Assembly: GCF_000759435.1 (NCBI RefSeq)
Contig: NZ_JRJG01000030.1
Location: 1-64,000 of the forward strand
Direction of reading: 5' to 3'
Origin: Hoeflea sp. BAL378
Lineage (GTDB): Bacteria > Pseudomonadota > Alphaproteobacteria > Rhizobiales > Rhizobiaceae
Length of the DNA stretch: 64,000 nt
In this document: piece after piece, positions 3,331 to 16,865 of the stretch
How positions within the stretch are numbered: the first letter of the stretch is position 1
Layout of the letters: each line of letters begins with the position of its first letter
Notes under the pieces: model-generated
What the model was told of the DNA's origin: nothing
Seen by the model: only the letters and a program-made list of their open reading frames with translations
Databases searched by the model: none
Program-made: the position numbers and the translations under genes

Positions 3331-6300
3331 GTGAATACAAACTTGGTTGACCTAACGTTGAAGACGTATCTATGCGGCACGACCAACTCGGGCGAGTTGG
3401 ATGAAATTCTTGAGGAATCTTCTGGACCTGAGGCAGCTGGCGGTCCGGATATCCTTGGCCAGAAGACGCTTGAAAAGCTTGTTATGGGAGAAACGCTTTC
3501 CCCCGGAGAGCGTTTCCATCTTGAAGCGATTATCATTCCGGAGCGCCGGCCGGCAATCGACATTGTCGATGGAGACTATCAAACCCGCCATCAAGACTGG
3601 CTTCATCTGAACAGCGATCCGATCCGGAAACGGCTTCACACTGCCCTTCCCAAGATTGGCCGGGTCGAACTCCCTGACCACCCAACACTGCCCTATGGCG
3701 GCACCGCTTTCATTGTTGGTGACGGTTTGCTTATGACAAACCGTCACGTTGCCGAATTGTTTTCGACGGGCCTTGGATTGAGAAACCTCAGTTTCATACT
3801 TGGCATGTCAGGCGGCGTTGATTTCCTCAGGGAGCGGCGCTCGATCAGAACATTCTATCTTGAATTCTCCAAGGTCGTGATGATCCATCCCTATTGGGAC
3901 ATGGCTTTGGTCAAGGTCGAGGGGCTGCCGGGAAATCTTTCTTCGCTCGTCCTCTCGACAGAACCAGCCGGTTCTCTCATCGGCCGTGATGTCGCAGTCA
4001 TAGGATATCCCGGCTTCGATCCGCGCAATCCGGCCGATGTCCAGAACTTTGTGTTCGATGGGATCTACGGCGTCAAACGGCTCCAACCGGGACGTATGAA
4101 AGCGATCGCCACGGTCAGGAGTTACAACCACGCAGTTGAGGCTCAGACCCACGATGCATCCACACTCGGAGGAGACTCAGGCGCATGTGTCCTCGACGTG
4201 ACGACTGGCGAGGTGATCGGACTGCATTTCGGCGGCCGCTATGCTGTGGCAAATTTCTGCGTTCCGACGGGCGCGCTCGCCACAGATGGCCGGGTCATAG
4301 ATGCCGGCGTCCGGTTCGCGGGCACGGCGTCGCGGGCGCGGTCGGACTGGGAGCCATTCTGGCGGAGCGCAGAGGCCTCAGCCGCCGAACCGTCAGCAAT
4401 TACTCTCAACACTGATTCCGCGGGGAGGAGCAGCATGACCAAGGAAACTGGAGAAGTGACAGTCACGGTTCCACTCGAGATAACGGTCCGGCTTGGCGCG
4501 GTGCAGACCCACAGCGTCGCATCCGTTGCCCCGCCCGCCATCGACGACATCGAACGTGCAGAGGAGCCCGTTCGCGACCCCGACTATTCCACACGGAGGG
4601 GCTACGATCCTGACTTTCTCGGTATGCGCGTTTCGTTGCCGACGCCGCGCAATCCGCAAAACCTGGCAAGGGTGGAGGATGGAAGCCATCTGCTACATTA
4701 CCATCATTTTTCCCTCGCCATGCATCGACAGCGACGGCTTGCATTCTTCACCGCAGCCAATGTCGATGCCAGCAAAGCCGTCAAGCGTCCGGAAAACCGT
4801 CCTCAATCAGACTACTCGCGCAAAGGCCTCGCCAACCTGGGCCCAAATGACCAGGAAAAATGGTTTTCCGATCCGCGCATCCTGGCGACCGAACAGCTGC
4901 CCGACAAGTTTTTCACCAAGGATCGAGGGTCCTTCGACAAGGGGCACATTGTTCGGCGGGACGATGTTGCCTGGGGGATGACCTATGATGAAATGCGCAA
5001 TGCAAATGGCGATACTTTTCATGTGACCAATTGTTCGCCGCAAGTGGCAGGTTTCAACAGATCAAATCTCGGCGAGGATAATTGGGGCGATCTTGAAAAC
5101 CTGATCCTGTCGCAAGCTGATACGGAGAAGCTGGTGGTCTTCAGCGGCCCGGTGCTCGAGCCAAATGATCCGGTTTTCCTTGGAGTTGACCTTGAGGGAT
5201 CGGTCGCGGTTCGTATTCCACAACGCTACTGGAAAGTGATCGTTGCAGAAAAAAATGGTGCGCTGGAAAGTTTTGCATTCCTGCTGGAGCAAGACCTTTC
5301 CTCCGTCGAGCTTGAATTCCTGGTCCCCACCACATGGAAACGGTACATGGTTGCCGTGTCCAGGATTGAAGATCTGGCAGATCTCGACTTTGATCCGGCA
5401 ACCCGGGCCGCCGATCAGGTGGAAACGACAGAAGGGGTTAGCCTGGCTGCAGCTTCCGGATTTGAAGCGTCTGGCACGGCGTTCCCGCCAGCAGCATTCA
5501 GCGCCATATCCCCAAGTGTCCAAGACATAGTATCCCTATGGCGTGAGCAACAAACGTCCGGCAAGAAACCCGACGATATGGACGAGGTTCGCTTCGTTGT
5601 TTTGTTGGGTACACCGCTATCCGACGCAACGATCAAGTCAGAGATCGAGACTGCATTCAACCTGGAGGTCAACGTTTCGCCGCTCTTTGCCAGCGACAGG
5701 GACCTTGATCGTTATCGTGCCATCGACATCCCTGGCGCCACATCGGATGACCGGGCGGACCTGTTTGACGTTGCCCGAGCGATCAACACGCTTCTGGCAG
5801 CCGAGACGGTCGAACCGGATCTTGCGACGCACTATTATGATTCCGATACGCTTCGCCCAAGCGAGGGTAGCGCGGAGAGCGCCAATTGGGCCTTTTGGTG
5901 CTGGGTCAACGAGGACGATCCTGCAAATCAACCGACTGACAAGGACTGGGCCATCAACAAGACCCGTGTTCCGAATGCCTGGGCCTTTTCAGAGAGCCAA
6001 GGCAAACCGTCCAAGGGAAAAGGCATCAAGATATTTCAACCGGATACGGGCGTCGTCCCTACGCACAAGGAAATGCCGCCTAAAGTTGCCAAAAATCCGC
6101 TTTCGGCTAACTTCGTCGAAGGTGGCAAGTCACCTGTCGATCCGATGACTGGCAGCGGCAATCTCGGCCATGGAACATCAACCGGCAGCGTCGCCGCCAG
6201 TCCGGTAGCGGGTCTGGTTCGGGGCTCCGCGCCCGAAGCCATGTTGGTGCCTATCCGCTGCATCCGATCCGTGGCGGTCTTCAATCAAAGCCGTGTCGCG

Positions 6301-7125
6301 CAAGCGATCGATCACGCCAGGATCAAGGGGGCCCATGTGATTACCATGAGCCTCGGCGGGGTCGTGAGTTCGGCGCTGCACGACGCCGTGCGCAAGGCAG
6401 TCAAAGCCAATATCATCGTGCTTGCGGCCGCAGGAAATTGCGTGGGTACCGTGGTCTGGCCAGCGCGCTATGACGAGGTGATCGCGGTTGGCGGCGTCAA
6501 CGAGAAAGACAAACCCTGGAAGGGGTCCAGTTCGGGCCGAAGCGTCGATGTGTCCGGTCCGGCCGAGATGGTGCTGAAGGCTGACGCGCGCGATGCGTCC
6601 AACCCGGCGAAAGCCAGTGCCGGGCAGGGCACGTCTTATGCGACCGCGCATCTTGCAGGAGTGGCGGCCTGCTGGCTGGCCCACCACGGGCGCGACGCGC
6701 TGATTGCACGGCTTTCTCCGGGCATGACGCTGCAGGGCCTTTTCCGTGGTGTGTTGGCAAAGTCTTCGCGGGTGCCTGCGGGCTTTGACACAGAAAGATA
6801 TGGTGTCGGGATCGTCAACGCCGAGGCTCTGATCAAAGCCGATCCGGCGGTGGTCGCTGGCCTCGAATCTGCTCCCGGCCACGTCCGCGACATTGAGGCC
6901 CAGGTGAGGGAACTGCTTGCTGAGGTTGCCGGGGTCGGCCAGGCTGAGGCCGCCGCTCCAGTGCTTCGCGATCGTCAAAGCCTGCTTGAGCTGGCTTGCT
7001 CCGGCCTCGACATGGCGCGCTTTAGCCAGTCGGCTGCAGGCCAGCTTGAAGCCCGGCCGCCGATGCGACTGTCGAGCGGTTTGAAGAAATTGTTGGGCGA
7101 CGATGCCCTTAAAATCATTCGGTAG
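3331..7125 (+). CDS. Trypsin-like protease / NUC1 endonuclease / subtilisin-like protease fusion
   Basis: This 1264-residue, probably cytoplasmic protein (no signal peptide or membrane segment) has three catalytic modules. Residues about 100-330 are a trypsin-like domain with His139 (TNRHV), Asp190 and Ser283 (GGDSGA). Residues about 430-690 are a DNA/RNA non-specific endonuclease (NUC1) domain with the DKGH motif (His539), Asn576 in PQVAGFN and Glu589. Residues about 880-1170 are an S8 subtilisin domain with Asp905 (DTG), His947 (GHGTS), Asn1036 (AAGN) and Ser1102 (GTSYA). All key residues are present, so the protein could be an active protease plus nuclease. The GTG start is chosen because GGAGG lies 7 bases upstream and the preceding AT-rich DNA is non-coding. 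It is the first gene of a four-gene operon, 9 bases before the next start. The C-terminal 90 residues are of unknown role. I infer it to be the toxic effector of a conflict system, possibly activated by proteolysis. Confidence 0.85.
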   Translation: MNTNLVDLTLKTYLCGTTNSGELDEILEESSGPEAAGGPDILGQKTLEKLVMGETLSPGERFHLEAIIIPERRPAIDIVDGDYQTRHQDWLHLNSDPIRKRLHTALPKIGRVELPDHPTLPYGGTAFIVGDGLLMTNRHVAELFSTGLGLRNLSFILGMSGGVDFLRERRSIRTFYLEFSKVVMIHPYWDMALVKVEGLPGNLSSLVLSTEPAGSLIGRDVAVIGYPGFDPRNPADVQNFVFDGIYGVKRLQPGRMKAIATVRSYNHAVEAQTHDASTLGGDSGACVLDVTTGEVIGLHFGGRYAVANFCVPTGALATDGRVIDAGVRFAGTASRARSDWEPFWRSAEASAAEPSAITLNTDSAGRSSMTKETGEVTVTVPLEITVRLGAVQTHSVASVAPPAIDDIERAEEPVRDPDYSTRRGYDPDFLGMRVSLPTPRNPQNLARVEDGSHLLHYHHFSLAMHRQRRLAFFTAANVDASKAVKRPENRPQSDYSRKGLANLGPNDQEKWFSDPRILATEQLPDKFFTKDRGSFDKGHIVRRDDVAWGMTYDEMRNANGDTFHVTNCSPQVAGFNRSNLGEDNWGDLENLILSQADTEKLVVFSGPVLEPNDPVFLGVDLEGSVAVRIPQRYWKVIVAEKNGALESFAFLLEQDLSSVELEFLVPTTWKRYMVAVSRIEDLADLDFDPATRAADQVETTEGVSLAAASGFEASGTAFPPAAFSAISPSVQDIVSLWREQQTSGKKPDDMDEVRFVVLLGTPLSDATIKSEIETAFNLEVNVSPLFASDRDLDRYRAIDIPGATSDDRADLFDVARAINTLLAAETVEPDLATHYYDSDTLRPSEGSAESANWAFWCWVNEDDPANQPTDKDWAINKTRVPNAWAFSESQGKPSKGKGIKIFQPDTGVVPTHKEMPPKVAKNPLSANFVEGGKSPVDPMTGSGNLGHGTSTGSVAASPVAGLVRGSAPEAMLVPIRCIRSVAVFNQSRVAQAIDHARIKGAHVITMSLGGVVSSALHDAVRKAVKANIIVLAAAGNCVGTVVWPARYDEVIAVGGVNEKDKPWKGSSSGRSVDVSGPAEMVLKADARDASNPAKASAGQGTSYATAHLAGVAACWLAHHGRDALIARLSPGMTLQGLFRGVLAKSSRVPAGFDTERYGVGIVNAEALIKADPAVVAGLESAPGHVRDIEAQVRELLAEVAGVGQAEAAAPVLRDRQSLLELACSGLDMARFSQSAAGQLEARPPMRLSSGLKKLLGDDALKIIR

Positions 7126-7134
7126 GGGGCCGCA

Positions 7135-8295
7135 ATGAGCACCATTGATGATTTTCATCTCGACCAGACCGCCAAACGCATCCGCCGTCTTTTCCCCACG
7201 CTCGGGCATATGAGCGCACCAGAGCTTGGACGCGCCGGCAGTTCAGAAGCCAGTTTTGAGAGCAGCCAGGGCGGTGTGGGCGCGCTTCCCGGCATGCGCG
7301 ATGTTCAGGCGATTTCTGAGCGGCTGCTTGCTGCGAACAGAGGTCACAGACAATTGGGCGCGACGGAAGCCGAAGCCATGGCAACGAACATTGTGCGCAA
7401 GGCGCAAAATGGCTTGATGAAGCTCGATGGTGCTCCGGACTGGGTTCTCGACACAGAGGAAACGATGGCTCTGGAAGCCGTTGTTCAAGGGCGCGGACAA
7501 CTCGTTGCAGTGCGGGTGATGGGAGATACGCTGGATGATATCCGTCAATATCCGGGCGCAGATATGTGGGCGATGTTGGCCGACGCCCATATCACCAGGA
7601 TTCTGGCGAGCGTGTCGGCCGCAGCGGCGGTTCGCGTCACGGACAATCTTCTCCCGAGCCTGAGCTGGGTCCAGGGAACGGCGTTTCTCATTTCCCGAAA
7701 TCTGGCCTTGACCAATCGCCATGTCCTCTTCCCACCGGCCTATGGAACACGGCTGGCGCGGCGGGTGCCCGGGACAACGACAGCGCGGCTGAAGGGCGAG
7801 TATGAAATTTGTCTCGACTTTGCTTTCGACAGCGGAGAGCCGCGAGACTCAACCTATCGGATTGTCGACATTCCCTTTGTGTCCGAGGATGCCGATCCGG
7901 TGGATGCCGCTCTTCTCAAGGTCGAGCATCGCGCCGGAGCCGAGCCCGACGCGTTGACAATCTCCCGCGACAGCGTCTTCGATATCGATCGGCTTTATGT
8001 GGTCGGGCATCCGGGCCGGTTGGCCAGCGTACCGGACGATATCCAGATGGTGTTCGATAATCCGGACGAACGAAAACGGGTCAGTTTCGGCAAGCTGATG
8101 GACCCGGTTATGTCTGGCCAGGCACATATTGTTCACGATGCACCCACCATTGGCGGCTATTCCGGCGCAGCGGTTCATGGTTTTGCTGACACATCAGTGC
8201 ATGCGCTTCATTATTGGGGGGATGCAAGAGAAGGCAATCGGGCGATAGCGGCAACAGCGCTTCGAAATCATCCAACGCTTGGTTCAATGTTGTAG
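7135..8295 (+). CDS. Trypsin-like serine protease
   Basis: A 386-residue protein whose C-terminal half is a trypsin-fold peptidase with an intact triad: His196 (TNRHV), Asp257 (DPVDAALL) and Ser343 (GGYSGAAV). The first 170 residues are helical and match no family I recognise; they could be a recognition or adaptor domain. There is no signal peptide, so it should act in the cytoplasm with its neighbours. It follows the triple-domain gene by 9 bases with a purine-rich ribosome binding site overlapping the previous stop (TAGGGGGCC), and precedes the next gene by 12 bases. Its His motif is identical to that of the first gene's trypsin domain, which suggests duplication followed by divergence. 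Confidence 0.85.
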   Translation: MSTIDDFHLDQTAKRIRRLFPTLGHMSAPELGRAGSSEASFESSQGGVGALPGMRDVQAISERLLAANRGHRQLGATEAEAMATNIVRKAQNGLMKLDGAPDWVLDTEETMALEAVVQGRGQLVAVRVMGDTLDDIRQYPGADMWAMLADAHITRILASVSAAAAVRVTDNLLPSLSWVQGTAFLISRNLALTNRHVLFPPAYGTRLARRVPGTTTARLKGEYEICLDFAFDSGEPRDSTYRIVDIPFVSEDADPVDAALLKVEHRAGAEPDALTISRDSVFDIDRLYVVGHPGRLASVPDDIQMVFDNPDERKRVSFGKLMDPVMSGQAHIVHDAPTIGGYSGAAVHGFADTSVHALHYWGDAREGNRAIAATALRNHPTLGSML

Positions 8296-8307
8296 GCAGG
8301 CCATGCG

Positions 8308-10455
8308 ATGAAACTCACTGCAAACGAACTGGACACATTCGCTGCCAGTTGCGCCAGGCATCTCAACCCCGGAAGGCTGGAGTCCTTCGCACGCCAGCAC
8401 AAGCTCATCGACGATATCGAGGAATTCATCAAGTTGCATTCAGTCGGTCAGAGCAATTCCGCCTATTCCGTCGCAAGGGCAATTCTCGACAAGGCCAATC
8501 AGCGCGAGCTTGCGTGCGATATAGCCGAAATATTCTTCAGCGAGATGCTGTGGTCTGATGAATTCAAATCAGCTGTGGGTCCGCTGACCCGCTCCGCCAA
8601 ATCCGACGTTCAGGCACATCAGGCCCTTATGGCCCGCCGCGATCATTTCCTGAGCGATAGTAACCTTAAGTCGCTTGCCAACACGATCGGCGCACGTGTC
8701 TGCTGCATTGTCGGCGAACTTTTGATCGGCGTCGAAACCAGGGTGACGACGGGTACAGGTTTCCTGGTCGGACCGGACCTGGTCCTGACATCGATGCATG
8801 TCCTGGATACTTTGGTGCAGGCAGGCCGGGCAGGGGAAGTTCCCGATTGTTTCAAGGTCATCTTCAACTACGAGGCCGGCTCGGGAATAACCGGCCTCGC
8901 AAATATCGATCAGCTGGCAGGCATTCGGGTGGTCGGCCTTTCCCCGGACTGGCTCGTTTACTCGCGCGACAAGGTCGACTGGGACGGAAACCGCGCCCAC
9001 CCGACACCGGCCGATATCACGGAGTTGAAATCAAAACTGGATTTTGCACTCATCCGGCTTGCCGAACCGGTGGGCCTGCAACCGATCAGGCCCGGCAATT
9101 TGAAGCCGCGGGGCTGGTTGCCGATCGCACGGCTGACATCTGCAAACTTCCAGAACCAGACCCGAATTATCATTCCCCAGCATCCCGAGGGCTGGCCGCG
9201 CCAGTTCGATTTTGGCCGGCTCGATAAGCTGCTTCCCTGCGGCACACGCATGGTGTCCATCATCGAGACCGCCGCCGGCACATCGGGCGCGCCCTGTCTT
9301 GACAAGGAAATGCGCATCGTCGGAATACACAATGCTGCCTATCGACCGAACGGTCCTGTCGAAGGAAACCAGGCGATCCGGTTCGATGTTGTCGAGCCTT
9401 TGATCGCGGCCCATTTGGCAAATGTTTCAGTGGATCCGCCCAAAGCGATGGGAGCCTGGCGGGTGGAACGCACCGACAGCACTCTGTCGCCGATTCTCGG
9501 ACGCACGAGGCTGCTGAACTGGATCAATGCCACCCTCTCGCCGGCGGACGGGGCGATGAGCCGCGCCGACCGCGTCTATGCGGCTGATGCATCGAAGGCT
9601 GGTTCGGGAAAAACCTTCAGTACGCACATTCTGAGATCGGCGCTGTCGGCCGACCGGTCGCATATCGTCATTGTGCTGGGCGGGTCGACGGAGTTGTTGC
9701 CGGAAAAGCTCGAGGACTTCGTCACCATCCTTGCCGAAGCCTTCGGTGTTTCCAAAGACATCCTTGCGACGATGCCGGAACGGCCGAGCGCCGACCTGCC
9801 TCCGCATGCGCAGGATGGCGACAAGGTTGACCGCTGGGCTTCCAACAAGATGGTGAACTGGTTCACCGATATTCTCGAAAAGCACCGCAAGATTGAGGTC
9901 AACAAGTCCGAGCGGGCACGAATCGTCCTTGCAGAACTCGGCGCTGATACGCCCCAACATATGGTGGATATTGCCAATGAGGCGCCCGACATCATTGTCG
10001 AGGAAAAGCGGTGGTCGGTTGGCTGGATCGCAATCGACGATCTCAACGTCGTTTCAATGTCGGCACATGTGAAAAGCTTCGTCTCGGCTCTTCTGGGCGC
10101 GGATGTCGCGGAGAGCTCCGTGACCGGCGTTCGGCAGGACCTGCGCTGGCTCTTTCTCGGCTATGTCCCGGATTTCCTGTTGAGCGAAGAAGTAACCATC
10201 GAGCATCTTGATACTGGCGTTCCGGAGCTCCAGCTTATCGAAGCGGTGATAAGATCTGCGGTCGAGGAAGCCAACATTGACGCGGAAGACGATGAGATTG
10301 TGACTCAGGCGATGGTGATCCGCGGCTTGGTTCCCCCGCTTCTCACCAAATTCCTGGCTGCCGGCATCGATCAGGAGACGGGCCTCTCGCTGGGGCAGCA
10401 ATTGGTTGCCGACCACATCCAGGCGATTTACAAAGAGAACGGACGCCAGCTATGA
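8308..10455 (+). CDS. Helical N-domain + trypsin-like protease + P-loop domain protein
   Basis: A 715-residue protein. Residues 1-85 are an all-helical segment resembling effector-associated (EAD/Death-like adaptor) domains that tether proteases to STAND proteins in bacterial conflict systems; this resemblance is by eye. Residues about 125-370 form a trypsin-like domain with His164 (TSMHV), Asp245 (KLDFAL) and Ser326 (GTSGAP). Residues about 395-715 start with a LGRTRLL motif and contain a Walker-A-like AGSGKT (431-436), in which the usual first Gly is Ser429, and a Walker-B-like IAIDDL (575-580). Its last four bases (ATGA) overlap the start of the STAND NTPase gene, so the two are translationally coupled. 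It could link sensing to proteolysis. Confidence 0.8.
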   Translation: MKLTANELDTFAASCARHLNPGRLESFARQHKLIDDIEEFIKLHSVGQSNSAYSVARAILDKANQRELACDIAEIFFSEMLWSDEFKSAVGPLTRSAKSDVQAHQALMARRDHFLSDSNLKSLANTIGARVCCIVGELLIGVETRVTTGTGFLVGPDLVLTSMHVLDTLVQAGRAGEVPDCFKVIFNYEAGSGITGLANIDQLAGIRVVGLSPDWLVYSRDKVDWDGNRAHPTPADITELKSKLDFALIRLAEPVGLQPIRPGNLKPRGWLPIARLTSANFQNQTRIIIPQHPEGWPRQFDFGRLDKLLPCGTRMVSIIETAAGTSGAPCLDKEMRIVGIHNAAYRPNGPVEGNQAIRFDVVEPLIAAHLANVSVDPPKAMGAWRVERTDSTLSPILGRTRLLNWINATLSPADGAMSRADRVYAADASKAGSGKTFSTHILRSALSADRSHIVIVLGGSTELLPEKLEDFVTILAEAFGVSKDILATMPERPSADLPPHAQDGDKVDRWASNKMVNWFTDILEKHRKIEVNKSERARIVLAELGADTPQHMVDIANEAPDIIVEEKRWSVGWIAIDDLNVVSMSAHVKSFVSALLGADVAESSVTGVRQDLRWLFLGYVPDFLLSEEVTIEHLDTGVPELQLIEAVIRSAVEEANIDAEDDEIVTQAMVIRGLVPPLLTKFLAAGIDQETGLSLGQQLVADHIQAIYKENGRQL

Positions 10456-13400
10456 AGGAGAACTCGCGAAACCTGTTGTCCAGGCTGATGCAGGATGAGA
10501 GCATCCGGAGCGAAGCTCTCAGGATCGGCGGAGAAATGGCGCTCCATGCGGTCACCAGACTTGCCGGAGCGACGGCAGGCACGCGCCCGGTACGACTGGA
10601 TTCCGAGGTGCCCGCGATCTCGCCGCCCCAGGTTGAGGCCGCGCTCAGCTACAATATGGACCCTTCGTCCCTGAATCTCAGTCCGGAGGAGTACGACTGG
10701 GTGGTGGCGCGATCCGCCCTGGTGTCGATCGGTAGCACAAAGCTGCTGCGTCTGTCATCCGAGGAGCGGCGGCGGGTACTTAATCACCCCGACGCCGCAA
10801 CGCTTGTCGAAAAACTGCTTTCTGACCAGGAAGCGGAAGACGAAAGAACCATAGGCCCGGGTGGCGGTGACTCTGTTGCACTAACTGGTGCGTATATGCG
10901 CGAGCTGTTGCGCGGAAACAGGATCATGGACTTTGCGACACTCTCCTTACGCCGTCTGCGTGCGATTACCGCAGCTCGCGGGGCGCTCGACGGAGTAACC
11001 CTCCTGTCCCCATCGCTGCCGGACGCAGCGGAATACCAGCGGCGGACGGATCTCGCCGAACTGCTTGATCCGCTCGGCATCATCATCGGGCTCGATCTTG
11101 ATAAATCTGACGATTACAATGACCGGTTTGTCGGTCGCACCGCGGAGCTTCGTGCCCTGCGCAGTTTTGTCGATGTGCTCGGCTCACAATCTTTGAGCGA
11201 GACATTGAGCCGAGGATTTGCGCGCAGCAAAAGCGCATTGACCCACCAGATCTTTGACCGGCCTCCCCGGCTACTGACAATTGCAGCGCCTGGCGGCCTC
11301 GGCAAGTCGACACTGATCGCCAAGTTCGTTTATGATCACGCACTCTCGTCGCAGACCCGCTTTCCGTTCGCCTTTCTGGATTTTGACCGGGCAGCGCTGC
11401 AACCACGCAGTCCGGGTCAGATGCTGGTGGAGATTGCCCGGCAGGTTTCGCTGCAGTTTCCGGATTCTTCCAAGCCGCTCAATGTGCTCAGGCGCGACAT
11501 TCGTTCTTCATTGTCCGGCAATGAAGGCGTCCCTCTGAGGGCCTACTTTGAAACATTCCAGGACCTAATTCGCAGTGTCCTTGAGAGCTGCCGCGCAAGC
11601 ACTTTTTTGCTGACACTTGATACAATGGAGATTGTCCAAGCCGATCCGCTGGCGATGAATGGTGTCGCTGCAATGGTTAAGGCGCTGACTGAAAGACCGT
11701 TCCCCGAACTCTGCATTGTGGCCGCTGGGCGCTCCGGACTTAACGAGTTGCTTGATGTCAACGAAAACAACTTTCGGGTGGAAAGGCTTCAGTTGCAGGC
11801 GTTGTCGGTCGGCGAGGCCCAGACAATGGTCGACCGACTTGGCAAAAACCTGATGGGTGCCGAATGGAACTCGGCTTGGGCGAGCAAAATTGCTGGCAGC
11901 AGGTCGCATTCGGAGATCCGGCGCGAGCCGCTGACATTAAGGCTTGCCGTGGAAATCGTCCGCGAGACAGTTCCTTCGAAGCGCAAGGCGCTCATCGACG
12001 ACATTCATCGGCTGGGAGAGAATGCTGATGACGGTTTCGTCGGGGCGCTCTATGAGAGGCGCATTCTCGACCATATCCGCAACCCGCATGCGCGCAAGCT
12101 CGCCTGGCCGGGCCTGGTAGCTCGGACCGTCGACATGAAGCTGGTGAGGAATGTCCTTGCCGGGATCTGCGGCCTTTCGGATGAGGAAGCCGGCGAAGCT
12201 TTCGAAACACTTTCCCTCGAAGGCTGGATCGTTGAGGCAAGCAATGGAGCGTTGCGTCATCGGCGCGATCTCCGCGCCCGCACTCTGCCGATGATGCGGC
12301 GCCATGACCCGAAACGCTTTCACCAGGTGCTGGATGCGCTCATCGACTACCATTCGAATCCGAAGGTTTCCGATCCATTGGAGGAAGTCTACTATCGGCT
12401 GCTGCGTGGCTCGCCAGAGGATGTAAGATCTGTCACTGGCGCAAGCTCCTTGATTGATAGTCTTGCGGCAGCCCGCGGGGATATGGAGGAAGGATCGCCG
12501 GGCTGGTGCGTCCTCGAAGCGCACTTTGCCGACAGGCCGATGGCGCTCGAACACATGAGAAAACTGCCTGCCGATCTGCTTTGGGAACATGTAGCACGCA
12601 CTGGCAGCAGCCTTCGGGGTATGGACGACCGGCAAATCGAACCTCGCGTCCAGTTGCTGATGGGCATTGATCCGTTTGAAACGGCGGGCTTGCCGCCCAG
12701 TAAAGCGGCGATGACTGCCTGGCAGCACCTACAGATCAAATGTGGACGCTGGGACAGGCTTGAAGAGCAAGATCTGTTGATGCCTATCGAGCAATGCGAC
12801 GTCACCTCGTTTGCATTTTATGCTTCCCGGTTGTCGCTGGCCAATGTCGAGTCCGCGAAGTTCTGGGGGGAGCGCTATCCATCCCTGCTGGCGCGTATAT
12901 TTGAGACCCGTGGACGGAAAAACTGGCAGGCGCTTGCCCAGGCGCTTGTGGTTGCCCGGCTCTATGACCGCGAGCTCGCTGAAGATATCGACCGCCAGAT
13001 AGTCGAAAACTATGCGTCGAGGGCAACCTTCAGCCGATCGTCCGAATTCGCCATGCGCACGATCCTGATTCACGGACTGACGAGCAGCCGTTCGGTGATC
13101 CAGAATTGGTGCGCCCTCGAAGCCTCCCGAATCCTGGAGGGGATTTCGGTTGCCGAGTTCTGTGTTGTCGCCCCAATCTTTGCAGAGCGTGGATGGCTTC
13201 AGAAAGAAGGCAACATTATCGAGTTGCTGGTACTGGCTCGGGAACTGGCATTTTCGATTGAGCAAGGCAATATCCCTCCAATTGCGCGGCGCATAATCTC
13301 CGACAAACTCGCGCTTTCACTGCTGGTCCGCGCGTTCGAGCGATGTGCATCAGAGATGGACGAGGATCCCGAAATCAAGCAAGCTTTCGGACTCTACTGC

Positions 13401-13742
13401 ACACTGCGACAGCCAGAATGGATCGTGCCATTCGGTTATCTGTTTGCTGACGGTATCCATTCAGAGTGGTGTGATGTTGCGTCCCAGCAAGTCAAAGAGG
13501 GCCACTATAGCCACGAGCCGAGCAGCTGGTGGCCTTTGTCCTCATCCAGACGGAAGCCATCGCTTCAGAACGATGTAATCAAATATCTCACATGGGCAGA
13601 CCGGGCCTGTGATTTGGATGGTGCGTTGAGCATGCTGCTGCGCTTTTCCCCGGCTGGAGAATCCAAGAATTTCGAGGGGCTGGAAATGGTGCGCAGGCAG
13701 GTCAGAGAAAACCATTTTCACAACGCCGTGACGTCAACATGA
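10452..13742 (+). CDS. STAND-type NTPase (probable sensor)
   Basis: A 1096-residue P-loop NTPase of the STAND/AP-ATPase type. An FVGR motif (226-229) precedes the NTPase. Walker A is APGGLGKST (279-287), Walker B lies in FLLTLD (Asp390), and an Arg-containing sensor-like strand is CIVAAGR (Arg427). About 225 N-terminal residues of unknown fold precede the NTPase, and about 600 mostly helical residues follow, as expected for a ligand-sensing superstructure. It is the last gene of the operon and overlaps the protease/P-loop gene by ATGA. In established STAND systems (for example Avs proteins) the C-terminal half recognises a phage product and the NTPase oligomerises to activate an effector. Here the effectors would be the separate proteases and the nuclease encoded upstream. 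The trigger is unknown. Confidence 0.8.
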   Translation: MKENSRNLLSRLMQDESIRSEALRIGGEMALHAVTRLAGATAGTRPVRLDSEVPAISPPQVEAALSYNMDPSSLNLSPEEYDWVVARSALVSIGSTKLLRLSSEERRRVLNHPDAATLVEKLLSDQEAEDERTIGPGGGDSVALTGAYMRELLRGNRIMDFATLSLRRLRAITAARGALDGVTLLSPSLPDAAEYQRRTDLAELLDPLGIIIGLDLDKSDDYNDRFVGRTAELRALRSFVDVLGSQSLSETLSRGFARSKSALTHQIFDRPPRLLTIAAPGGLGKSTLIAKFVYDHALSSQTRFPFAFLDFDRAALQPRSPGQMLVEIARQVSLQFPDSSKPLNVLRRDIRSSLSGNEGVPLRAYFETFQDLIRSVLESCRASTFLLTLDTMEIVQADPLAMNGVAAMVKALTERPFPELCIVAAGRSGLNELLDVNENNFRVERLQLQALSVGEAQTMVDRLGKNLMGAEWNSAWASKIAGSRSHSEIRREPLTLRLAVEIVRETVPSKRKALIDDIHRLGENADDGFVGALYERRILDHIRNPHARKLAWPGLVARTVDMKLVRNVLAGICGLSDEEAGEAFETLSLEGWIVEASNGALRHRRDLRARTLPMMRRHDPKRFHQVLDALIDYHSNPKVSDPLEEVYYRLLRGSPEDVRSVTGASSLIDSLAAARGDMEEGSPGWCVLEAHFADRPMALEHMRKLPADLLWEHVARTGSSLRGMDDRQIEPRVQLLMGIDPFETAGLPPSKAAMTAWQHLQIKCGRWDRLEEQDLLMPIEQCDVTSFAFYASRLSLANVESAKFWGERYPSLLARIFETRGRKNWQALAQALVVARLYDRELAEDIDRQIVENYASRATFSRSSEFAMRTILIHGLTSSRSVIQNWCALEASRILEGISVAEFCVVAPIFAERGWLQKEGNIIELLVLARELAFSIEQGNIPPIARRIISDKLALSLLVRAFERCASEMDEDPEIKQAFGLYCTLRQPEWIVPFGYLFADGIHSEWCDVASQQVKEGHYSHEPSSWWPLSSSRRKPSLQNDVIKYLTWADRACDLDGALSMLLRFSPAGESKNFEGLEMVRRQVRENHFHNAVTST

Positions 13743-13889
13743 AAAGAATGACCGGACGATTGACGAGACAGGACACCGTCACTTTCGGATGATCGGTAAG
13801 GCCGACTTCGAGCTGCGCTTCTTGGTCCTACGCAAAGTCTTTTTAGTTGCAAGTTTCTCCGAAGCTCGTAATTATTGCGAAAGTTGAAA

Positions 13890-13909
13890 TTCACATAACT
13901 CGGAATTAT
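13890..13909. repeat. 20-bp perfect inverted repeat, left arm
   Basis: TTCACATAACTCGGAATTAT lies four bases before the ATG at 13914. Its exact reverse complement is at 15772-15791. The two arms enclose 1862 bases holding two convergent genes. Each arm sits at the start of the gene reading into the segment, and the right arm also overlaps the stop codon of the tyrosine recombinase gene. Confidence 0.85.
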
Positions 13910-13913
13910 CCGT

Positions 13914-14612
13914 ATGATTTTCCCGTTCGACGAGGTGACGAAAACCTTAATCAGCTTAATGATCGGAGGTCTCTTAGGACGGGAAATCTATCGGATTGTC
14001 GACAAACCGCGCGTAACGATTCAGTATAGGAAGCCGATAACTTTCACTCAGGAGGATGGCCAATTTCTTTCTATTCGAGTGGGCAACGTTGGTCGAAATG
14101 CGGCCACTAAATGCTTCTGCACGTTAACCATTCTTGACCTGGATCATTCGCTTATTCTTGATCCGTCTGAGGCAGAAGCCTTTGAGAACTTACATGAATA
14201 CAAGGAAGAAAAGCCCTCTTTCGACGTCCCTCGCTATCAGATTATTCACCCAAAATCACAACGCGGTGTTGCAAATGATCTCTTATGCTGGTCGGCGCTC
14301 GGCAATCCGGCACACGTTGAGATAAATCCCGGAACGACAAGCAGTATTGACGTTTGCAAACTTCTGCGGTCAGCGGAAAAAGAGTATTTCATTTTTCCAT
14401 CCGAATTCGGATGGCGCCGGGTCCGAGTTCGTATCAAGGCGACAACGCCGCTGAGATGCAGGGTGCTGGTTTGTCCTGCAAATGACTATCCGACACCGCT
14501 AGACTTTGAGATTTTTGCGGAAGAAGGCGAAATTAAACTTCGTATCGTTCGGCTTAGTTTTTTTGTAAAGATGAGGCGCCTGATCTCTCGAAATTCTTTA
14601 TATACGAAGTAG
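13914..14612 (+). CDS. Hypothetical membrane-anchored protein
   Basis: A 232-residue protein with a short hydrophobic N-terminal stretch (residues about 10-22, TLISLMIGGLLG) that could be a membrane anchor, then a mainly beta soluble domain. No family is recognised. Its base composition is clearly AT-rich relative to the rest of the window, which indicates recent transfer. It starts four bases after one arm of a 20-bp inverted repeat, and its end overlaps the end of the convergent glycosyltransferase gene by 15 bases. No good Shine-Dalgarno sequence precedes ATG 13914, so translation may be weak or start elsewhere. Confidence 0.55.
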   Translation: MIFPFDEVTKTLISLMIGGLLGREIYRIVDKPRVTIQYRKPITFTQEDGQFLSIRVGNVGRNAATKCFCTLTILDLDHSLILDPSEAEAFENLHEYKEEKPSFDVPRYQIIHPKSQRGVANDLLCWSALGNPAHVEINPGTTSSIDVCKLLRSAEKEYFIFPSEFGWRRVRVRIKATTPLRCRVLVCPANDYPTPLDFEIFAEEGEIKLRIVRLSFFVKMRRLISRNSLYTK

Positions 14613-15773
14613 CTGCAGATATGCATTCGCATATCTTTTTGCACAATCTCTGAAATCGTTTTTAAGCCGAAATCTAATCATATCGAGTTGATGATTTTCT
14701 CTGGTAGCTGAACAACGAAGGATCGCGTTCGCGAGGCCTTCCGCGTCGTCTACGGCAACAAAGGTAGCGTGTTGAAAGGTAGATGCTATCTCCAAATAGG
14801 TCGGAATTTCGGAGAGAACTAAAGCCTTTCCTGACGCGAGCGCTTCCGAGACGGACAGCCCGTATGAGCAGTATCTTTCTGGTGAAATGACGATATCTGC
14901 CTCCTCGAATGCGTCCTGCATCCTGGAGAAATTTTTAATTCGGATCGCGTCAGCGATGCCAAGTTCGCGGGCTTCTTGTCGAAACGACTCGACCATATCT
15001 CCGTAATAATCTCGGACGCCCGTGAAAAGGAACGAAAAATTGCTGTGGCCTTTATCGCGTAAAATCCTGCAAGCCCGCAGAGCGACATCTTGCCCTTTCT
15101 GAGCCGGGAAAAAGCGTGACGGAAGAAGGACTGTGTATTGGCGTTCCGATTTTGGGCGCACTTTGACTGGAGCGAAATTTTCTAAGTTTACCCCAAGATG
15201 ATTTGCCCGAACTTGTCGGGAAAACGCGTTTGAATACTCTTCCGAATAGAAGCGGCTGGGTGTGAACAAAAGGGGAGACGATGGAAACGCGTCAGGGTCA
15301 CTACGAACAAGCTGCCCCATTGTTTCGAAGGCGCCATGATGCCAGAACCCTTCGAGTTCGCGGGCATTTTCGTGGTTGGTAACAACCTGCGGCACTTCTG
15401 TCTTAACGTAAAGGGCCGCGGAAAACGCGTTGAAGTGAAAAAGATCGGCCTCGACGTCTTCTATCTGTTTCTGGACGTAAGTTGAAATATGCCGAAAAGC
15501 TCCTTTCGAGGCCTCTTGATTATAGACGGCGTCTTTCATGAACGCTGCTATATTTGGGTCAGTTTTGCGATAGTGCGTTTGAAATTCAGCGGGTATCCGG
15601 CCGCGCACCTCGACGCCTTCAATATCCAATTCACGCTGCAAATTGGAACAAACGACGAAGGGGTCGAAGCCCAGAACTTTTAACTCTTTAGCAAGCTCTA
15701 TTAGAAAACGTTCTGTCCCTCCAATAAAATTGGCCGGAACGCTCCATGCGGTATGTAAGCAAATGCGTATCAT
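14598..15773 (-). CDS. Glycosyltransferase family 4 protein
   Basis: A 391-residue GT4-type (GT-B fold) glycosyltransferase. The N-terminal Rossmann domain carries a glycine-rich loop near NFIGGTERF. The C-terminal domain has LPSRFFPAQKGQDVALRA, the usual sugar-nucleotide-binding start, and ends with a GLSVSEALASGKALV motif. In the family's E-x7-E motif the second Glu is present, but the first position is Cys (CSYGLSVSE), which may alter activity. It probably transfers a sugar from a nucleotide sugar to a surface glycan. The gene is AT-rich and starts inside the right arm of the 20-bp inverted repeat, 9 bases from the recombinase stop. No other glycan-biosynthesis gene is nearby, so its acceptor is unknown. 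Confidence 0.75.
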   Translation of the reverse strand: MIRICLHTAWSVPANFIGGTERFLIELAKELKVLGFDPFVVCSNLQRELDIEGVEVRGRIPAEFQTHYRKTDPNIAAFMKDAVYNQEASKGAFRHISTYVQKQIEDVEADLFHFNAFSAALYVKTEVPQVVTNHENARELEGFWHHGAFETMGQLVRSDPDAFPSSPLLFTPSRFYSEEYSNAFSRQVRANHLGVNLENFAPVKVRPKSERQYTVLLPSRFFPAQKGQDVALRACRILRDKGHSNFSFLFTGVRDYYGDMVESFRQEARELGIADAIRIKNFSRMQDAFEEADIVISPERYCSYGLSVSEALASGKALVLSEIPTYLEIASTFQHATFVAVDDAEGLANAILRCSATRENHQLDMIRFRLKNDFRDCAKRYANAYLQLLRI

Positions 15774-15791
15774 AATTCCGAGTTATGTGAA
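15772..15791. repeat. 20-bp perfect inverted repeat, right arm
   Basis: ATAATTCCGAGTTATGTGAA is the exact reverse complement of 13890-13909. It contains the last codons and stop (TTC ACA TAA on the minus strand) of the tyrosine recombinase gene and runs into the start codon of the glycosyltransferase. Its placement beside a site-specific recombinase suggests a recombination site. Confidence 0.85.
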
Positions 15792-16754
15792 CTCGGCGAG
15801 TATTTTTCCCAGCGTATCGGCTGTATTCATGGCCTGCATGAGGGCCGTATCCGAGACGCGGGTATAGATTTCAGTGGTCGCAATACTTGAATGCCCGAGA
15901 AGTCGCTGGACGAAGCGGATATCGACCCCTTCTTCGATCAAGAATGTAGCGGCGGAATGACGAAAGCGGTGAGGGGTCACGCGCGTGTCCAGATTGCAGG
16001 CTTGCGCAAGAAGGCGGAGCCTTCGCCTAAGCGCTTGTTCGGTGAGACGCCGGCGGGCGCTGTTGAGAAGCAGGTAATCGCCGTGATGCGCGGCTTGGCT
16101 GGCTTGCCATTTTATATACTGCAGCTCGACACGCAGCTTGGAATTGCCGATATAGACATTGCGTTCTTTGCTGCCCTTGCCATGAATGCGTATTCGAAAG
16201 CCGTCATTGGATATGTTGGATAGTTTGATCTGCGTCAGCTCGCCGACGCGTACCCCCGTGGCCACCATCAGCTTGATCGCTAGCGCAGTCGTTTTCGATA
16301 TCGTATGAAGTTCACTCGAAAGCGCAGGAATGCTGGATGACGCCTTGGAGCGCTCTCCGTCAGTTTCTTTTAACATTGTTCGCACATCGACCCATTCGAC
16401 AGGACGCGGCAAGCGTTTGGGTGGTCGGAGGTCAATTTCCAGTCCGGCAAAGGGATCTTCTTCAATATGACCGGCTTTGCGCAGCCAAGTCGAAAAAGCT
16501 CGCAGTGTCACTAGCCGCCGACGGATGGTCGCGTGCCTGTAGTTACGTTCTCTTTTCAAATGGTTGAGATAGTCGAGCACCACTCGACCATTTAGTTCAT
16601 CCCCATAATCATTCAGTTGGGCGAACTTTAGGTAGCCGGCGATGTCCTGCTCATAGGCGTCGACGCTGTGTTGGCTCAGTCCCTTGGTGTGTTGGCAGTG
16701 AGTCAGGAAGGCCTGCTTTTCGGAAATCAAAATATCTGGAAGCATACAATTCAT
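15783..16754 (-). CDS. Tyrosine recombinase / integrase (XerC/D-like)
   Basis: A 323-residue site-specific recombinase with a SAM-like N-terminal DNA-binding domain (about 8-100) and a catalytic domain carrying the full residue set: Arg169 (ATGVRVGEL), Lys193 or Lys196 (HGKGSKER), His262 and Arg265 (HRFRH), His288 (LLGHSS) and nucleophile Tyr297 (TEIYTRV). The annotated ATG is 16754; ATG 16745 (MLPDILIS) is an equally good start. It is the only intact integrase in the island and the likely agent of integration at tRNA-fMet. Its length and compact structure are closer to Xer-type recombinases than to P4-type island integrases, so it may instead, or also, act on the adjacent 20-bp inverted repeats. 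Confidence 0.9.
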   Translation of the reverse strand: MNCMLPDILISEKQAFLTHCQHTKGLSQHSVDAYEQDIAGYLKFAQLNDYGDELNGRVVLDYLNHLKRERNYRHATIRRRLVTLRAFSTWLRKAGHIEEDPFAGLEIDLRPPKRLPRPVEWVDVRTMLKETDGERSKASSSIPALSSELHTISKTTALAIKLMVATGVRVGELTQIKLSNISNDGFRIRIHGKGSKERNVYIGNSKLRVELQYIKWQASQAAHHGDYLLLNSARRRLTEQALRRRLRLLAQACNLDTRVTPHRFRHSAATFLIEEGVDIRFVQRLLGHSSIATTEIYTRVSDTALMQAMNTADTLGKILAEFT

Positions 16755-16755
16755 T

Positions 16756-16775
16756 CCCCATCTGGATTGATGGGG
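16756..16775. promoter_or_regulatory. Inverted repeat just upstream of the recombinase start
   Basis: CCCCATC (16756-16762) and GATGGGG (16769-16775) form a 7-bp inverted repeat around a 6-base spacer, immediately upstream of the recombinase start codon at 16754. It may be an operator or mRNA hairpin controlling recombinase expression. The role is inferred from position. Confidence 0.35.
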
Positions 16776-16865
16776 TTTGCTATCGGTTTGATATTAATGG
16801 GTGATGTTCAAGGCTGAGGCGCAAGTGGTTTGGAAGGCTATTGGTTCTGACCTTGCCCCCAGGTT

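Follow-up and report, generated by a model that had tools for sequence, protein, structure and literature searches.

Several described systems invert DNA between paired sites. In the Mu G-segment, the P1 C-segment and the e14 P-segment, the serine recombinases Gin, Cin and Pin invert two alternative, opposed gene sets. Shufflons and tyrosine-recombinase switches (Rci, PsrA/hsdS and Mycoplasma Xer1/vpma) work by inversion between short inverted sites, while in invertible promoters (fim, Bacteroides Mpi and C. difficile RecV) inversion by a site-specific recombinase alters expression. The dif site has the form ATAA-N6-TTAT. Phage inhibition is reported to occur via serine-recombinase inversion (PinQ/e14), and recombinases near defence genes have often been found and dismissed (PMC12529663); simple tyrosine recombinases serve dimer resolution, integrons or mobile elements, and some of them are inversion switches (PMC8138268). 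A further article reviews invertons and shufflons (PMC11868660). The word recombinase is absent from the article on the bDLD and GT4 conflict systems (PMC8195603), and in PMC7159879 it appears in the references only. Within the open-access literature covered, which consisted mostly of titles and starts of abstracts and had preprints outside its scope, no published description of an arrangement such as the one reported here was found.

The locus is a probable DNA-inversion switch. It lies in the window, i.e., the whole 64,000-nucleotide stretch of Hoeflea sp. BAL378 DNA that was analysed, and comprises the following features:

13847..13875, plus strand: weak candidate promoter TTGCAA-17-AATTAT outside the far arm, reading into ORF232 (p 0.07 against random windows, 0.31 against shuffles)
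13890..13909, plus strand: far arm, predicted recombination site (TTCACATAACTCGGAATTAT), with the core ATAA-CTCGGAA-TTAT at 13895-13909
13914..14612, plus strand: ORF232 (232 aa), cargo gene distal to the recombinase, with an N-terminal hydrophobic stretch seen by eye
14598..15773, minus strand: GT4 glycosyltransferase gene (Pfam; GT4-conflict also above its cut-off), cargo gene proximal to the recombinase
15772..15791, minus strand: near arm, predicted recombination site, exact complement of TTCACATAACTCGGAATTAT, with the core at 15772-15786
15783..16754, minus strand: Xer-like simple tyrosine recombinase (323 aa) with Pfam catalytic and SAM-like domains
16755..16800, minus strand: recombinase leader with a short hairpin (CCCATC...GATGGGG), similar by eye to the leaders of the Rhizobium relatives Leaf306 and T1470

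The first-pass annotation had described a perfect 20-bp inverted repeat enclosing two convergent genes, with the right arm overlapping the recombinase stop codon and each arm forming the leader of the gene reading inward, and re-inspection confirmed this description. The two arms match exactly, ORF232 (plus strand) and the GT4 gene (minus strand) converge with a 15-nt overlap, the ATG of ORF232 lies 4 nt inside the left arm, and the near arm contains the recombinase stop codon together with the first two bases of the GT4 start codon. The chance expectation for such a repeat is nil (mean of 0.00 in 100 dinucleotide shuffles, 3 mismatches included), and no third copy of the 20-mer was found in the whole 5.48-Mb genome with up to 2 mismatches allowed. 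Each arm holds the dyad core with the same 7-nt spacer, and the window site pair is in inverted orientation. The G+C content of the segment is 0.48, versus 0.53-0.65 in 500-base windows from 5000 to 13749, and no transposase was detected inside it among the ORFs and Pfam matches. The contig was assembled across both arms in a single orientation; the other state was therefore absent or rare in that culture.

The recombinase carries the invariant family motifs TGVRVGEL, GKGSKER, HRFRHS and LGHSSIATTEIYT, which we take to hold the catalytic R-K-H-R-H-Y residues. It resembles XerD, XerC and XerA; among proteins of solved structure, XerA and XerD are closest to it in sequence. It scored 194 and 196 bits with the XerC and XerD models, respectively, below both cut-offs (335 and 330), and 100.7 bits with the integron-integrase model TIGR02249 (cut-off 265). 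The distal cargo product, ORF232, has no family match in Pfam, PADLOC or NCBIfam and no relative among 396 other genomes of the order (its own genome being the one of 397). A single match in 72,556 plasmid records, spanning 82 aligned residues (36.6% identity) on a Roseovarius plasmid, is partial and apparently a decayed copy; it starts immediately after a degenerate site, at a distance of 4 kb from a relative of the recombinase. A single-sequence structure model of ORF232 was unusable (mean pLDDT of 31).

Like the Mu G, P1 C and e14 P segments, in which the surroundings of the segment select one gene set, the locus has two inward-reading genes inside the segment, one of which would be selected from the outside. 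It differs from them in having a tyrosine, Xer-like enzyme and other sites instead of a serine invertase, and whole unrelated genes, with cargo replaced as a module, instead of tail-fibre variants. Shufflon-type systems vary one gene family, whereas here the two genes are unrelated and the sites also carry stop and start codons. Unlike in invertible promoters, the inverted segment contains the genes and not the promoter. The half-sites (ATAA-spacer-TTAT) and the enzyme recall the Xer/dif system, but the spacer is of 7 nt, the sites form inverted pairs, the enzyme falls below the XerC and XerD cut-offs and its location is accessory and sporadic. An Xer-related enzyme adjoining a cargo-exchange site is also a feature of integrons, from which the locus is distinguished by the integrase-model score, far below the cut-off, and by the lack of direct same-spacer pairs; an integron or direct-repeat cassette array was rejected, with no such direct motif pair in 42 loci.

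The recombinase family was surveyed in 43 distinct loci (26 plus 18 more, with L118 in both sets). Inverted site pairs with the core ATAA-N7-TTAT were distinguished in 24 of these loci (27 pairs), and no site pair was found in the other 19. The family occurs in Alphaproteobacteria, in Aliarcobacter (Campylobacterota), in Streptococcus salivarius and a Lachnospiraceae genome (Bacillota), and on one viral contig (L144). The spacers are identical in 26 of the 27 pairs, which were partly found through that identity. Since a search for pairs through exact repeats inherently favours matched spacers, the fair test is one that uses the motif only. When motif pairs separated by 1.2-9 kb were counted in 42 family loci, 25 of 49 were inverted with identical spacers (in 22 loci) and none was direct with the same spacer. 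In 79 control loci of distant recombinases, one of 82 motif pairs was inverted with the same spacer (L019) and none was direct. The lone control pair looks genuine, and L019 was taken into the family because an earlier loose scan had flagged it; in that scan, 4 of 76 distant recombinase loci had an inverted repeat with a score of at least 17 near the recombinase, and the core was present in L019 only.

Two positions of the near arm were distinguished, with searches covering only the vicinity of the recombinase ends: (i) in 14 of the 16 D-type pairs it lies at most 10 bp from the recombinase stop codon, the outliers L204 and L019 having it 30 and 91 bp downstream, respectively, and (ii) in all 11 U-type pairs it lies 89-290 bp upstream of the recombinase start. 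Three loci (L132, L134 and L137) carry pairs of both types, the upstream and downstream spacers of which differ.

The closest relative found that retains the site is Leaf306 (Rhizobium sp.), whose recombinase is 72% identical to that of the window and was the best of the 80 loci kept in a scan of species genomes. Its recombinase stop codon also lies within this 20-mer, which recurs in inverted orientation 5.5 kb downstream with a single mismatch at the centre of the spacer. The cargo differs from that of the window (proteins of 1566 aa, weakly matching AAA, and of 172 aa), and there is no convincing gene at the near arm. The recombinases of Rhizobium plasmids T1470 and T1473 share 77.6% identity with that of the window, and no such site is present in their records. 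Leaf306 and the T1470 relatives look decayed. With the own genome or query locus counted in each case, the recombinase was detected in 3 of 394 genomes of the family of Leaf306 (E 1e-60), 2 of 18 of the genus (E 1e-45), 12 of 397 of the order (E 1e-42) and 11 of 385 of the class (profile, 1e-75), i.e., its distribution is sporadic. A loose cut-off of 1e-30 gave 13 of 61, mostly relatives near 30% identity.

According to our own ORF calls, an inward ORF starts within 30 nt of the core at 49 of 54 arms. The caller began at the arms, a setting biased towards short distances, and among the 49 the far ORF of Leaf306 is probably a shadow ORF. In L112 and L204 the annotated gene starts agree with these calls. 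At 22 of the 54 arms the ATG is formed by the TTATG of the site itself. By the same calls, genes or gene sets converge in 26 of 27 segments, the exception being Leaf306; in L134 the genes nearest one arm of each segment start less clearly. Most D-type sites have the recombinase stop codon in the core or a few bases away and, by inspection, are compound sites in which the stop codon, a purine-rich, Shine-Dalgarno-like spacer and a start codon lie within about 25 nt. The arms of S. salivarius are 31 nt long and include an AGGAG motif.

The segments usually pair an enzyme with a conflict-type (STAND, pentapeptide), membrane or unnamed protein, the terms enzyme and partner having been assigned by hand from weak and strong family matches (for L201 by eye, from its likeness to L199). 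Besides the GT4 and ORF232 pair of the window, the following combinations were recognized, with U and D in a locus name marking its upstream and downstream segments: D-Ala ligase-like proteins with AAA proteins (L112 and L133) or with unnamed proteins of 823-853 aa (L137U and L204); carbamoyltransferases with AAA proteins (L099 and L137D); aminotransferase-like proteins with pentapeptide repeats (L132D, L135 and L141); SHMT with AAA-TPR (L132U); GT2 with AAA (L138) or with an unnamed protein (L200); a split GT4 with Mrr-AAA (L111); a PEP mutase-methyltransferase with NB-ARC (L199); and methyltransferases with unnamed proteins (L194, L019, L144 and L205). Neither partner in L195 had a Pfam match, nor did the partners in L106, L136 and L142. 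When 30 selected cargo proteins were compared, both members of the pair matched between L112 and L133, L137D and L099, L132D and L141, L135 and L141, and L194 and L134U, so some modules persist as pairs; between L137U and L204 the enzymes matched and the partners did not. Switching of surface glycans is not supported by the cargo as a general function of such loci: the enzymes vary (GT4, GT2, D-Ala ligase-like, carbamoyltransferase, SHMT, aminotransferase-like, methyltransferase and others), and conflict-type proteins are common among the partners.

Inversion between the arms, proposed in the first-pass annotation, was found in a homologous locus on two Aliarcobacter cryaerophilus plasmids, pACRY43158 and pM830MA (L204 and L213). 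BLAST aligned a 3458-bp segment in plus/minus orientation (99.91% identity) between flanks in plus/plus orientation (988 bp at 99.90% on the recombinase side and 4471 bp at 99.87% on the far side), and the switch of orientation falls at the AATAATAGGATATTATA arms. The BLAST blocks constitute the evidence, as small gaps blur the simple collinear identity (0.44 before and 0.68 after flipping). Arms of such length are short for homologous recombination, which makes site-specific recombination the natural cause; a second integrase is encoded upstream on the plasmid, and the adjacent recombinase is the presumed catalyst. This is a distant member of the family, its recombinase being 31% identical to that of L137. 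Within the class to which the window belongs, the gene adjoining the recombinase in G1110 can be read for 29 residues, and these resemble the L194 gene distal to the recombinase (80% over 20 aa); D-type loci may therefore contain this type of module in either orientation.

Other records show one orientation only, namely three Phaeobacter plasmids, two identical S. salivarius plasmids and the S. equinus/NU10 pair, all near-identical within their groups; L199 and L201 likewise share a single orientation. In D-type loci the enzyme is proximal to the recombinase in 13 of 14 callable pairs (the exception is L204; L108 and L195 were not callable), which suggests a preferred orientation, while in U-type loci our own calls place the enzyme near in 6 and far in 5. 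Assembly breaks were sought at ATAACTNNGAATTAT in seven genomes: G490 and G479 have an inverted pair on one contig, G679 and G595 have a single site, and in G008, G861 and G1110 the two sites are on separate contigs. The contigs end 79 bp past the core at both sites in G008, 82 bp at both in G861, and 121 and 8 bp in G1110. The tails differ in G008, as expected with both orientations among the reads, and are identical in G861 (82/82), where a longer inverted repeat accounts for them equally well; no further contigs with the G861 tail or the G008 near tail were found. These ends are no more than suggestive of mixed populations, and other causes fit too.

The alternative that the arms mark a mobile cassette was borne out as well, as in homologous loci the cargo is replaced with breaks at the arms. 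Genomes G732 and G649 belong to one genus and are 97% identical over a stretch that includes the recombinase and is delimited by the upstream and downstream near arms; the alignment stops 13 nt and 1 nt past the cores, and the cargo is unrelated. Identity between Ruegeria and Phaeobacter plasmids (68.5%) begins at the near-arm core. In four S. salivarius plasmid records and one of S. equinus, three types of cargo are embedded between conserved flanks: (i) an unnamed protein and a methyltransferase (two identical S. salivarius records), (ii) a polyprenyl synthetase and an unnamed protein (S. salivarius NU10 and S. equinus, with one 99.6% block common to both), and (iii) an aminotransferase and AAA-TPR (the further S. 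salivarius plasmid record). Plasmid pAFAEC of Aliarcobacter faecis shares with A. cryaerophilus the recombinase (97.8%) and the far flank (90.8%), and its cargo has been replaced by GNAT and a methyltransferase.

Promoter-like signals were scanned for with a generic, not a fitted, E. coli sigma-70 matrix against shuffled controls. Outside the far arm and reading inward, such a signal (p<0.1) was present in 8 of 16 D-type cases (Fisher 7e-6), and neither the near side (2/16) nor the outward strand (3/16) was enriched. The far side also exceeded the near side (Wilcoxon p=3e-5) and the inward strand the outward one (paired p 0.013). In U-type loci neither side was enriched alone (near 2/11, far 0/11), and near exceeded far (paired p 0.024). 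With random windows as the control the signals look stronger, yet the far-flank outward strand scores too (Fisher 0.004), so part of the signal is base composition. This pattern suggests that each segment may have one outside promoter and that inversion would select the gene facing it.

We consider the segment, with a probability of roughly 75%, to be a two-gene module that can be inverted and exchanged and on which the adjacent Xer-like tyrosine recombinase acts. The recombinase would bind the ATAA/TTAT half-sites and exchange strands within the identical 7-nt spacers, thereby flipping the 1.9-kb segment. As each gene starts at an arm and reads towards the other, inversion would swap the gene that adjoins the recombinase, coupled to its stop codon, with the gene that faces the far flank, where promoter-like signals tend to occur in loci of the window's type. 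Expression would then probably alternate between the GT4 enzyme and ORF232, the latter facing the far side in the present orientation. Over evolution, the same sites serve as replacement points for whole modules. Thus, judged by homologous loci, both earlier readings, inversion and cassette exchange, hold. For the window strain we infer inversion by the window recombinase and its reversibility, the placing of the promoter, expression of one gene at a time and a function in conflict with phages or competitors; a switch that is locked in this strain is possible.

It is also conceivable, if unlikely, that the arms are exchange points only and that inversion is a rare side reaction of no regulatory meaning, cassettes being replaced between strains either through homologous recombination in the conserved flanks or through action of the recombinase on a second molecule. 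The replacement of cargo at the arms in several independent comparisons, the proximal enzyme in 13 of 14 callable D-type pairs and the single orientation of the near-identical Phaeobacter records are in keeping with this; however, same-spacer motif pairs were inverted in 25 cases and direct in none, genes start at both arms, the enzyme of U-type loci is near in 6 and far in 5, and a natural inversion exists in Aliarcobacter. Much less probable is a transposon-like unit that has its terminal inverted repeats next to a recombinase gene by coincidence: the segment is indeed bounded by repeats and variable in cargo, but it lacks a transposase in the window, its near arm stays close to the recombinase in 27 pairs and the genome has no third copy. 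An IS or transposon was rejected on the single site pair in the genome and on the tie of the near arm to the recombinase. The least credible explanation, that the repeat is a chance or fossil feature devoid of function, would agree with the decayed look of the Leaf306 and T1470 relatives, and is opposed by the shuffle expectation of 0, the family-wide recurrence of same-spacer inverted pairs and the Aliarcobacter inversion.

If the module is indeed invertible and exchangeable, it would offer a heritable two-state choice (four-state with two segments) between an enzyme and a conflict protein, and new choices would be acquired as interchangeable modules. With odds slightly better than even, we regard the locus as one of a multi-phylum "flip-and-swap" class, in which an Xer-like recombinase with one or two compound sites would serve two-gene conflict modules that are exchanged between strains and toggled by inversion, the enzyme or its STAND, pentapeptide or membrane partner facing the promoter; segments on both sides with different spacers would act as two-bit switches. 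The precise sites link a recombinase family with defence-like gene pairs in at least three phyla. Members of the family are easily recognized by the site motif, and some gene pairs recur together in distant loci and provide a list of candidate two-gene systems. Viral contigs contained no match to the 20-mer, and their scan with the recombinase alignment yielded 38 loci, with the architecture present in one (L144) of the two checked for repeats. In the window strain itself, another relative of the recombinase (32% identity) is encoded on contig C11 of the same genome.

Three of the recombinase loci compared with that of the window (L132, L134 and L137) carry a separate segment on each side of the recombinase, and the spacers of their recombination sites (the N7 of the core ATAA-N7-TTAT) are matched within each side and different between the two sides. 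At L134 (genome G732; oriented positions 7585-8748), the two convergent genes of one segment have in common an inverted stretch of approximately 510 bp with 99.4% identity (164 aa); it looks as if one convergent gene had been copied onto its partner within the invertible segment.

In three draft genomes, contigs stop no more than approximately 120 bp beyond recombination sites (C4/C13 of G008, C49/C86 of G861 and C45/C105 of G1110), the tails past the sites being of equal length in two of these three genomes.

Palindromic ATAA-N7-TTAT sites with longer arms occur on two plasmids (L112, position 30306; L116, position 29092), in both cases just upstream of the gene for a different integrase. Loci L113-L117, on plasmids of the Roseobacter group, encode a clade of related recombinases, whose sites are degenerate or not recognisable; the regions surrounding several of them are rich in defence genes (Qat, AbiE, HEPN, AbiH and others).

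The following features lie near the segment and recombinase of the window:

3331-13742, + strand: four-gene operon adjoining the segment
16866-18055, - strand: IS3-like element, immediately upstream of the recombinase

The operon encodes a trypsin-nuclease-subtilase protein, a trypsin-like protein, a bDLD2-trypsin protein and a large AAA-like protein, an arrangement in the same style as the conflict systems described in PMC8195603. Approximately 90 bases near 43.1-43.2 kb of the window show inverted similarity to the first ORF of the IS3-like element.
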